Shown here piece by piece: positions 60,971 to 64,000 of a stretch of DNA of 64,000 nucleotides. The position numbers and the translations under genes are program-made. The notes beneath the pieces were generated by a model. The model had not been told where the DNA came from. It saw only the letters and a program-made list of their open reading frames with translations, and searched no databases. The DNA lies in assembly GCA_020852705.1 (NCBI GenBank), contig JADZAP010000004.1, forward strand, positions 17,486 to 81,485. The letters run 5' to 3'. Position 1 is the first letter of the stretch, and each line of letters starts with the position of its first letter. The DNA is from Ignavibacteria bacterium. GTDB taxonomy: Bacteria > Bacteroidota > Ignavibacteria > Tepidaquicellales > OLB5.

Positions 60971-61237
60971 TTACACCAGCGAATCATACTGCACAATTTC
61001 CCATTTAAGGCTTTTGTGGTAGAATGAAATTTCGCATATCAGCCCGTCATCCTCACATATAACGGTAAAATGCGTTTTAAAGCCCTCCTCATTATCCGGC
61101 AGACGCCATACATTGGCAATGCGGTGTACCTTGTACACACGCTTATCCCACTTGAACTTAAGGATATCAACCTTTGAGTTGTGGAAATACGAAATTACCT
61201 CTATGGGTTTATAAACCTGGTTTTGAATGTAGGTCAT
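60971..61237 (-). CDS. DUF6504-like small protein facing lexA
   Basis: I take the ATG at 61237, giving 88 residues; the ORF-track start lies in a low-complexity AT repeat. The sequence PIEVISYF, then VDILKFKWDKRVYKVHRIANVWR and a closing LKWEIVQYDSL follow the order of DUF6504 (P-x-EV, F-x-W-x-x-R-x-Y-x-V, W, closing YD). That family is often encoded beside Y-family polymerases. Here it is divergent from lexA, with the polymerase beyond. The match is by eye. It may take part in translesion synthesis, but no catalytic motif is visible. Confidence 0.6.
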   Translation of the reverse strand: MTYIQNQVYKPIEVISYFHNSKVDILKFKWDKRVYKVHRIANVWRLPDNEEGFKTHFTVICEDDGLICEISFYHKSLKWEIVQYDSLV

Positions 61238-61445
61238 AACACAAATAACAAATAGTAAATTACAAATAACAAACAAATTCCACCTCTTGCCTGATTGCTT
61301 CGCAGTAGAATAGGAATATTAAAGCAATCGTTTTCACTGTCAAAGACGGTTCGTTGACTTCAAAGGGGGAATTAAAAACAGATTGCTATTACTTCTCCCA
61401 AAATTACCCTGTAAATCCACTTCAAAAAATTCCATTATTTCCTGC

Positions 61446-61474
61446 TTGACTTCGTTGAATAATTACTGTATATT
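61446..61474 (+). promoter_or_regulatory. lexA promoter, sigma70-like (TTGACT-N17-TATATT)
   Basis: TTGACT (61446-61451) and TATATT (61469-61474) are spaced by exactly 17 nt. Its -10 box lies inside the first LexA-box-like palindrome. Confidence 0.65.
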
Positions 61475-61496
61475 TATACATTGTAATTTTATACAG
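61466..61496. promoter_or_regulatory. Two abutting LexA-box-like operators
   Basis: CTGTATATTTATACAT (61466-61481) and TTGTAATTTTATACAG (61481-61496) each resemble the proteobacterial CTGT-N8-ACAG box with one mismatched end. They overlap the promoter -10 and lie 14 nt before the ATG. Confidence 0.7.
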
Positions 61497-61510
61497 TACT
61501 ATAATCATAT

Positions 61511-62131
61511 ATGAAAAAACTCACTAAAAACCAGCAGCGTACGGCTGACTTTATAAGCCGCTATATAAAAGAGCACTTATACTCCCCCACTTACAAAGAA
61601 ATAGCAGAGCATTTTAAGGTGAACGTTAATGCCATTCAGCAAACAGTTGCGGCGCTTGTAAAAAAGGGTGCACTGGAGCGAAATGAAAGAATTGCACGGG
61701 GATTAAGAGTTAAACAAGTTCCAAATGCGGAGCTGCTGCACGGCAGCGTGAAGATGATAACTATTCCCCTTTACGGCAATGTTGCCGCAGGCGAGCCTGT
61801 ATTTGCGGATAATAATATAGAAGGATACATTACAGTCGATAAACCCCGGCGCTTATCGGGTGAAATGTTTGCCGTTACGGTGCGGGGTGACAGTATGACC
61901 GATAAGAAAATTATTGAGCGCGATAAGCTGATTATCCGCAAGCAAAGTACGGCAAACGATGGTGAAATTGTTGTTGCCCTGCTTGATGATGAAGTAACTG
62001 TAAAGATATTTAAGAAAAATAACGGCAAGCCGTACCTTCAGCCGGCAAACAACAAATATGACCCCATACGCAGACCGTTTAAAATACTTGGCATTGTGGT
62101 GGGACTTACAAGGGATTATACGGAGGTGTGA
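61511..62131 (+). CDS. lexA: LexA repressor
   Basis: The 206-residue protein has the LexA winged helix at residues 1-70 (TADFISRYIKEHLYSPTYKEIAEHF) and the S24 peptidase domain. The self-cleavage Ala-Gly bond is in VAAGEPVF, the catalytic serine in VRGDSMTD and the lysine in VTVKIF. It represses DNA damage genes until RecA triggers self-cleavage. Its promoter is covered by two LexA-type boxes, so it probably controls itself and perhaps the divergent DUF6504-like gene. Codon use is richer in G and C than in the flanking region to the left. Confidence 0.95.
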   Translation: MKKLTKNQQRTADFISRYIKEHLYSPTYKEIAEHFKVNVNAIQQTVAALVKKGALERNERIARGLRVKQVPNAELLHGSVKMITIPLYGNVAAGEPVFADNNIEGYITVDKPRRLSGEMFAVTVRGDSMTDKKIIERDKLIIRKQSTANDGEIVVALLDDEVTVKIFKKNNGKPYLQPANNKYDPIRRPFKILGIVVGLTRDYTEV

Positions 62132-62287
62132 ATAAGGCAAAAAGCAAAAGTAAAAAAGCAAAAGTAAGGATTCATGCCGCGAATACAAAAACCGGCAGGT
62201 TTGGGAAAAATACTTTATTAACAATACTCAGTAAATTTGATTGGGAGAAAATTTGATTATGACCTCTACTTTTAACTGTATTGGCAG

Positions 62288-62354
62288 TCCTTTACAAAGC
62301 AAGCAGGGGATATCTCGCAAAGGCGCTAAGACGCAAAGAAATAGAAGCAATGAA
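62288..62354 (+). repeat. 67-bp direct repeat, copy 1
   Basis: It matches 62477-62543 with one mismatch (GGGGATATC versus GGGGAGATC). It contains the CGCAAAGGCGCTAAGACGCAAAG unit of the dispersed family and an ATG near its end. Copies are 189 bp apart, a multiple of three. Confidence 0.9.
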
Positions 62355-62476
62355 ACATATACACAAAGAACAAAAAGATACAAATGCTGGGGGAAAGCAA
62401 AAAGATGAAAAGTTTATTTATCGCTTCTCCTTAACAAGGCATGGCTTTACAAGAAGAAGAGTTTATTTATGACCTC

Positions 62477-62543
62477 TCCTTTACAAAGCAAGCAGGGGAG
62501 ATCTCGCAAAGGCGCTAAGACGCAAAGAAATAGAAGCAATGAA
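62477..62543 (+). repeat. 67-bp direct repeat, copy 2
   Basis: Second copy of the repeat at 62288. Its ATG at 62539 is the ORF-track start of the polymerase frame. Confidence 0.9.
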
Positions 62544-62631
62544 TACAGCAAAAAATACAGGTAAGATAAGTTCATCATTTTTTATTCCGAGGGATAATAA
62601 ACCTTCGGCGCATATTTTTAAGAGGATAAGG

Positions 62632-63858
62632 ATGATGCCGCTGTATTCTTTTCCCCACCACAAAGATCTTGGCAATACAGATAAAGCCAACCGCAATAAA
62701 TATTTCATACATCTTGACCTTGATGCATTTTACGCACAGGTAGAGCAGCGGGATAATCCGAAGCTTCGGGGGAAGCCAATCTCGGTTGGCGGAGGCGAGG
62801 GCAACAAGGGCATTGTAATGACAGCAAGCTATGAGGCGCGCAAGTTTGGTGTTGATATAGGCATGTCGGTAGTTGATGCAAAGCGGCTGTGTCCCGAGCT
62901 TATTTCCCTGCCCTGCTACGGTACAAAGTATGAAGCTGTTTTGCAGAGCATACTGTTTGAAATTTCAAAACTTTTGCCTGAAGACTGCATTGAGCAGTAC
63001 AGTATTGATGAGTGTTTTCTTGATATAACTCCAATAGCAGGTGATTATTTTAAGGCGGCAAAACTTGCATGGCAGATAAAAGGGCTTATCAGGAAGAAGG
63101 AGAACTTAACGGCATCCATAGGACTTTCATTCAACAAGTCATACGCAAAAATGGCAACAAAGTTTGATAAGCCGGACGGTCTTACAATAGTTCGCCAGGA
63201 GAACCGCGATATGATATACCGTCAGCCGGTAAAGAAGATGTGGGGGGTGGGTCATAGAATGGAAATACGCATGCACTCACTTGGCATACGCACTATTGGT
63301 GAGCTTGCTGAGTATGATTTTCATGCAATACATAAGGAGTTTGGGATAAACGGAGTGATACTTCGTAAAATAGCCCGGGGTGAAGATACAAGCGGCATAG
63401 CAGGCAGCGATACGCAGAGGGTTGAAAAATCTTTCAGCCATAACCACACTCTTTCAAATGCAATTTACGAAAGCCATAGAGCTGAAGAAGAAATTAAACG
63501 GATGACCGAGTACGTATGCCGCAGGATGCGGGCAAAGGATCTTATAGCAGACCATATAGGCATATCGTTACGCTATGAAGACCTTGGGTACCGCGGAGAT
63601 AAGGTAAGACTTTGCCATGCAACCAACAGCGAGCGTGAGCTTTTCCATAACGCAATGGAAATTTACAGGAAACTTCCGCAGCCAAGTCCATTATACAAAG
63701 TCCGCACATTCGGCATATTTGTTTACGACCTGTTTAAAGTATCAGCATACAATCTGGATTTGTTTAACCGTGAGCATCTTATCCCTTATAGACAAATTGA
63801 TATGCTGAAGGATAAATACGGAGAAAATATTATAAGGATGGGGCTGGGGAAAAGTTAA
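62632..63858 (+). CDS. Y-family DNA polymerase (DinB/UmuC-like)
   Basis: The protein bypasses damaged bases. The catalytic core begins YFIHLDLDAFYAQVEQRDNP with the first aspartates, and SIDECFLD holds the second pair. The steric-gate position is a tyrosine. The helix-hairpin-helix region GVGHRMEIRM and little-finger domain follow. Near the end NLDLF resembles a sliding-clamp binding motif, followed by IDMLKDKYGENIIRMG as in UmuC-type tails. I prefer the ATG at 62632, which has AGAGG 6 nt upstream; the in-frame ATG at 62539 lies in a repeat and adds 31 residues. It follows lexA, so SOS control is likely. Confidence 0.9.
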   Translation: MMPLYSFPHHKDLGNTDKANRNKYFIHLDLDAFYAQVEQRDNPKLRGKPISVGGGEGNKGIVMTASYEARKFGVDIGMSVVDAKRLCPELISLPCYGTKYEAVLQSILFEISKLLPEDCIEQYSIDECFLDITPIAGDYFKAAKLAWQIKGLIRKKENLTASIGLSFNKSYAKMATKFDKPDGLTIVRQENRDMIYRQPVKKMWGVGHRMEIRMHSLGIRTIGELAEYDFHAIHKEFGINGVILRKIARGEDTSGIAGSDTQRVEKSFSHNHTLSNAIYESHRAEEEIKRMTEYVCRRMRAKDLIADHIGISLRYEDLGYRGDKVRLCHATNSERELFHNAMEIYRKLPQPSPLYKVRTFGIFVYDLFKVSAYNLDLFNREHLIPYRQIDMLKDKYGENIIRMGLGKS

Positions 63859-64000
63859 AACAATCCAGCAATGGAGTAGTTTGGACTTTGAAGAATGTAA
63901 ATCCAGAAAACATTTTAATTCTTAAAAATTTTTCTGCATTAATACCAAAATTAAGTTTTCAAATAAATCAAGTTTAAGATAATAAAAAATAATTTGAAAT

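Follow-up and report, generated by a model that had tools for sequence, protein, structure and literature searches.

Among the systems described so far, the lexA-imuB-C-polY operon of Geobacter sulfurreducens (GeoPolY-like group; PMC6511836) contains the same three components as the locus analyzed here. According to PMC6511836, which cites Jara 2003, this operon is damage-induced and co-transcribed. PolY and ImuB-C, presumably together with RecA, are listed as a putative complex (PMC6511836, PMC12926913). Among the modules of SOS mutasomes, ImuB-C is regarded in the literature as the least characterized. It is a mainly beta domain with a conserved C-terminal Trp and at least two conserved positive residues (PMC3765255), and its fold is a novel beta-barrel that has no close PDB structure (PMC12926913). 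In Deinococcus deserti, we found genes for LexA, a Y-family polymerase, a DUF6504 protein and DnaE in this order on plasmid 1 (NC_012527.1), and the same genes were published as lexA-imuY-imuB-C-dnaE2 (PMC8072749). Since the DUF6504 gene of D. deserti carries the name imuB-C, DUF6504 corresponds to the published standalone ImuB-C. As in the present locus, LexA, a Y-family protein and a standalone ImuB-C/DUF6504 thus occur together in D. deserti, but there the Y-family protein is predicted to be inactive and DnaE2 performs synthesis. In the ImuA-ImuB-DnaE2 mutasome, ImuB has a C-terminal domain of the same family fused to a Y-family fold; it differs in that the polymerase is fused and inactive, ImuA takes the place of RecA and DnaE2 is present. 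Pol V of E. coli (UmuD'2C-RecA) likewise combines a LexA-controlled Y-polymerase with a small subunit and RecA, but its small subunit is the SH3-type UmuD', to which the ImuB-C barrel is structurally unrelated (PMC12926913).

The window (the whole stretch of 64,000 nucleotides that was analyzed) belongs to an Ignavibacteria genome of 2.94 Mb in 75 contigs, which is 97.6% complete. The three genes that a preliminary description had placed together at its end were all found as open reading frames (Table 1). In the following, f1 denotes the window genome's own family, f2 the other family of the same order (its sister family) and f14 a further family within the class. Very probably, the locus is a lexA / imuB-C / polY module that acts as a self-contained unit of SOS mutagenesis. 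Its likely function, for which we infer binding and activity from sequence, is that of a LexA-repressed, DnaE2-independent PolY-ImuB-C-RecA mutasome. This kind of module is known from Geobacter; for Ignavibacteria it is apparently new.

Table 1. Genes and putative control elements of the locus (window positions).
Feature	Position	Strand	Basis
Small protein, divergent standalone ImuB-C (DUF6504 superfamily), 88 aa	60971..61237	-	Alignment A1, profile links, AlphaFold2 model
lexA promoter-like TTGACT-17-TATATT, overlapped by box 1	61446..61474	+	Sigma-70-like, 10/12 matches
LexA box 1 (putative operator), TACTGTATATTTATACATTG, CTGT-N8-ACA[G] type	61464..61483		Upstream of lexA in 11/11 f1 loci
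LexA box 2 (putative), weaker, overlaps box 1, CATTGTAATTTTATACAGTA	61479..61498		15 bp downstream of box 1
lexA, 206 aa	61511..62131	+	NCBIfam TIGR00498 173 bits (cut-off 111); Pfam LexA_DNA_bind and Peptidase_S24
Y-family DNA polymerase, 439 aa	62539..63858	+	PF00817 IMS 149.5 bits; IMS_C (PF11799)

LexA is complete, as had been described, with a wHTH and an S24 domain, the Ala-Gly cleavage site VAAGEP, the Ser in GDSM and the Lys in VTVKIF, and it is the only LexA_DNA_bind protein of the genome (single PF01726 match). The polymerase is the only Y-family member (single PF00817 match). It carries the catalytic motifs DLDAF and SIDE, and the clamp-binding-like motif NLDLF pointed out previously was located at residue 405, ahead of a short tail (IDMLKDKYGENIIRMG). 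This tail resembles the N-terminus of RecA: the alignment of 26 f1 and f2 tails matched it with an hhalign E of 4.9e-5 vs 0.065 for the reversed control. Such a RecA-NT motif was described in polymerases that bind RecA (PMC6511836). The genome encodes one C-family polymerase (single PF07733 match) and therefore no DnaE2.

At the other end, the polymerase possesses a conserved N-terminal extension (SSSFFIPRD...MMPLYSFPHHKDL). Throughout the f1 and f2 polymerases, about 45 residues (SSxFFIPR...KRVRxMPLYSFPHxKD; window 62539-62700), which have no Pfam match, precede the catalytic domain and could form a docking site. Between lexA and the polymerase gene lies a 67-nt direct repeat (62288-62354 and 62477-62543, 189 bp apart, 99% identical), the second copy of which extends into the annotated start codon of the polymerase; its core was not found elsewhere within the window.

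The small protein had been called DUF6504-like. This holds through the profiles of its relatives, but not by direct comparison: the Pfam scan returned 0 families even at E = 10, which counts against our main reading, and scans with NCBIfam and PADLOC gave nothing useful. Relatives were collected in alignment A1 (22 sequences), according to which the ATG at 61237, and not the TTG at 61276, is the conserved start. Residues F18, F28, Y35, W44, V59, C61, C68, E69 and W79 are invariant in A1. PF20114 (DUF6504) matched 4 of these 22 sequences weakly (best 0.0066). The A1 profile aligned with A3, which comprises 7 proteins from Calditrichota and other MAGs, at 99.6% in hhalign (E 1.8e-24), and all 7 A3 members match PF20114 (best 6e-8, the first above its cut-off). 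The A3 profile in turn matched the DUF6504 proteins of f14, which belong to the same class, with an E of 9.9e-8, and A1 matched the DUF6504 alignment A2 directly (E 2.7e-5). Reached via its relatives, the link is indirect, yet it argues strongly for the small protein being a divergent ImuB-C/DUF6504 member. In agreement with the published traits of ImuB-C (PMC3765255), the AlphaFold2 model (pLDDT 89.8) is nearly all-beta with seven strands, W79 is invariant, and positions 27 and 29 are Lys/Arg throughout A1. Foldseek matched the model to no PDB entry at E <= 0.001, which would fit the novel fold reported for ImuB-C, and the A1 profile found no match among PDB sequences. The claim that the role of the small protein in damage bypass is undescribed did not stand, as the family has already been published as standalone ImuB-C (PMC3765255, PMC6511836, PMC12926913). 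The protein is kept in 37 of 59 relatives, all within the order of the window genome, and it reveals a branch of the ImuB-C family that Pfam misses. In a viral structure library, the top fold match was the uncharacterized siphovirus protein A0A8S5PG70 (E 0.023, TM 0.66, 20% identity), which may be a phage ImuB-C.

The likeness to the GeoPolY type is drawn on gene content, on the catalytic motifs and RecA-NT-like tail, and on the absence of DnaE2. As reported for G. sulfurreducens, an apparently active Y-polymerase with a RecA-NT-like tail occurs without a DnaE2 or ImuA partner. In contrast to Geobacter, imuB-C is divergent from lexA and not inside the operon, ImuB-C itself has diverged in sequence below Pfam detection, and the host belongs to the Ignavibacteria. 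Compared with D. deserti, the catalytic motifs are kept and DnaE2 is missing. The locus could serve as a clean test case for ImuB-C, with one polymerase, one ImuB-C, one LexA and no DnaE2.

Two overlapping putative LexA boxes precede lexA. Box 1 has 2 mismatches to the palindromic consensus, and the 15-bp spacing is identical in 11/11 f1 lexA loci, which show TACTGTATATTTATACA(G/C/T)TG together with a weaker copy. The TTGACT element is retained by most relatives. We take the f1 boxes to be of the E. coli CTGT-N8-ACAG type. Among the scanned f1 genomes with the locus, a perfect CTGT-N8-ACAG site occurs once, at lexA. Two observations count against our main reading: recA of f1 has no LexA box, and separate boxes are missing at both the small gene and the polymerase gene. 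In f1, the distance to the operator is 85 bp to >2 kb for the small gene and 0.6-1.8 kb for the polymerase gene, so that we assume LexA to control both genes in the window genome by way of divergence or read-through. A broad CTGT-N8-ACAG regulon in the window genome was considered and rejected, because the near-consensus sites examined are nearly all intragenic and recA carries none. The LexA regulon of f1 seems to be confined to the trio locus.

Surveying gene neighborhoods in Ignavibacteria, we found small gene, lexA and polymerase gene in the same order and orientation in all 11 testable f1 loci, mostly adjoining the PEPCK gene; in one of these, the contig stops short of the polymerase gene. 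In two of the genomes without a small gene, the locus lies at a contig end. The genomes compared are mostly fragmented MAGs, which counts against the reading as a single unit. Outside Ignavibacteria, linkage is based on 13 loci from one scan. Calditrichota show the order lexA - S24 protein - small gene - polymerase, and a MAG labelled Deltaproteobacteria shows lexA - small gene - polymerase. Three further loci, including Caldisericaceae, pair small gene and polymerase without lexA. In f14, the order is S24 protein - Y-polymerase - DUF6504 - dnaE. In f2, the type-B copies are located behind the polymerase, without lexA and with SRAP divergent. The majority of f2 small genes, however, lie far from lexA and polymerases, which also counts against our main reading. 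A single SRAP gene is present in the window genome, far from the trio within the same contig (G000:C5:142197-142778). In four Calditrichota loci (L123, L125, L126 and L127), the gene between lexA and the ImuB-C gene is a second short S24 gene, UmuD-like by eye, and lexA, S24 protein, ImuB-C and polymerase may there form a four-component mutasome.

In f2, the palindrome CCWTA-N6-TAWGG was detected upstream of lexA, the orthologous polymerase and the small gene. Within 150 nt upstream, an exact site occurs at 13/16 unlinked small genes, 13/17 orthologous polymerases and 13/17 lexA genes, vs 0/7 second Y-polymerases and 1/5 recA genes. Shuffled sequences contain at most 0.002 sites per sequence, and f2 genomes hold 4-11 sites each. 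These counts were made in the same sequences that yielded the motif, and the second-polymerase controls and genome-wide counts guard against over-fitting. One genome (G027) has four sites, namely at polymerase, lexA, small gene (assigned by position adjoining the small-protein match) and one intragenic. As the palindrome sits on lexA itself, we read it as the putative LexA box of f2; given the different box sequences at f1 and f2 lexA, the two families would use different operators. These are candidate LexA-binding motifs for the group, and we found none described for it in the papers examined. The operator common to unlinked genes offers independent evidence tying standalone ImuB-C functionally to an active Y-polymerase, and indicates that ImuB-C is not a mere passenger of operon structure. 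In f2, at lexA loci that include L246, L257 and L268, the putative operator overlaps the start codon and the -10 element lies only a few bases upstream, which suggests a leaderless lexA mRNA. Further f2 genes directly behind the palindrome (L271, L278, L281) encode a RarA-like AAA ATPase, RecA (G016) and a PA0069-like radical SAM protein (by eye).

Reportedly, ImuB-C was proposed in 2013 to be a damage-binding adaptor. As such, the small protein would mark lesions for several repair systems without binding the polymerase, and the invariable Lys/Arg at positions 27 and 29 as well as the occurrence of the family apart from polymerases, with most f2 copies solitary, would fit. ImuB-C contexts with Ku, SplB and SRAP point in the same direction (PMC3765255). 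We nevertheless consider this role rather unlikely, as the solitary f2 copies carry the polymerase's operator, ImuB fuses ImuB-C to a polymerase-like domain (PMC3765255), and alleles of the small protein co-vary with those of the polymerase and not with lexA. This co-variation was analyzed by Mantel tests on pairwise protein distances of nine genomes of the genus, a small number. Distances of small protein and polymerase are correlated (r = 0.58, p 0.004), those of lexA and polymerase more weakly (r 0.43, p 0.03), whereas PEPCK distances are uncorrelated with either small protein or polymerase. Two congeners (G010 and G012) are 97% identical in PEPCK and 98% in LexA, but 75% in the small protein and 79% in the polymerase. 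In the trees of small protein and polymerase, G001 groups with G000, G008 and G010; the lexA tree places G002 and G012 there instead. This suggests that lexA was exchanged in place, separately from the flanking genes. Because lexA sits between the two, the co-variation goes beyond linkage alone, and a matched small protein-polymerase pair would explain it.

The same data bear on the idea that the small protein works with LexA, as a partner or modulator (co-repressor or cleavage aid), and not with the polymerase. This idea would agree with the divergent small gene beside lexA in f1 and with the Calditrichota loci, where the gene adjoins either lexA or an S24 gene, yet small protein and lexA distances are uncorrelated (r = 0.00), and in the f2 type-B copies, Caldisericaceae and two other loci the small gene is paired with the polymerase in the absence of lexA. 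We regard this possibility as highly improbable. The earlier claim of a functional trio with lexA is backed by synteny, recurrence in other phyla, the shared f2 palindrome and allele co-variation.

In the proposed mutasome, LexA would repress lexA from the tandem CTGT-N8-ACAG operator and hence also the downstream polymerase gene, and this operator region probably also serves to repress the divergent small gene. Upon DNA damage, RecA filaments would trigger self-cleavage of LexA, as established for LexA in general; the putative operators of f1 and f2 would support damage-induced, joint expression as in Geobacter. After derepression, the polymerase would be made and could contact the sliding clamp via NLDLF, while its RecA-NT-like tail could bind RecA. 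As a standalone ImuB-C, the small beta protein may be a regulatory subunit that binds the polymerase, RecA or both, potentially playing in trans the role of the fused ImuB-C domain in ImuB, and might license lesion bypass. More broadly, we tentatively propose, with slightly less than even confidence, that the Ignavibacteriales LexA regulon has shrunk to little beyond lexA, one Y-polymerase and a dedicated ImuB-C, so that the SOS response governs mutagenesis but, for the most part, not recA. Polymerase and ImuB-C would be co-adapted and inherited as matched alleles, clustered in f1 or scattered under a shared operator in f2, with two unrelated operator sequences.

The region was noted before to be richer in G+C, which our measurements bear out: G+C is 40% in 61001-64000 vs about 33% before, and GC3 is 0.53 for the small gene and 0.44 each for lexA and polymerase, compared with a mean of 0.26 +/- 0.05 for 40 window genes. 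That the three genes are chance neighbors or a recent foreign island without joint function is hardly credible, even with a trio GC3 at least 3.4 standard deviations above the window genes and a relic of the polymerase tail just past the polymerase, since the order is kept in the family and recurs in other phyla, the operator is common where the genes are unlinked, the trio GC3 of congeners is equal and their PEPCK GC3 exceeds that of the window genome. We rejected distant horizontal transfer as an explanation of the high GC in view of the equal trio GC3 of congeners (0.41-0.61 in f1 relatives). PEPCK GC3 is 0.39-0.49 in f1 relatives vs about 0.31 in the window genome; together with the trio values, this indicates that the window genome has turned AT-rich, with a trio resembling that of a congener. 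Of the recent transfer suggested earlier, a transfer at most within the genus is left as plausible. PEPCK synteny in the genus and the equal trio GC3 of congeners argue against a wider one, and an origin from another phylum is not plausible. The relic, 32 codons at L002:3501-3596 (about 64016-64111, past the window end), is 75% identical to the polymerase's own C-terminus and perhaps represents the remains of a replaced resident polymerase copy.
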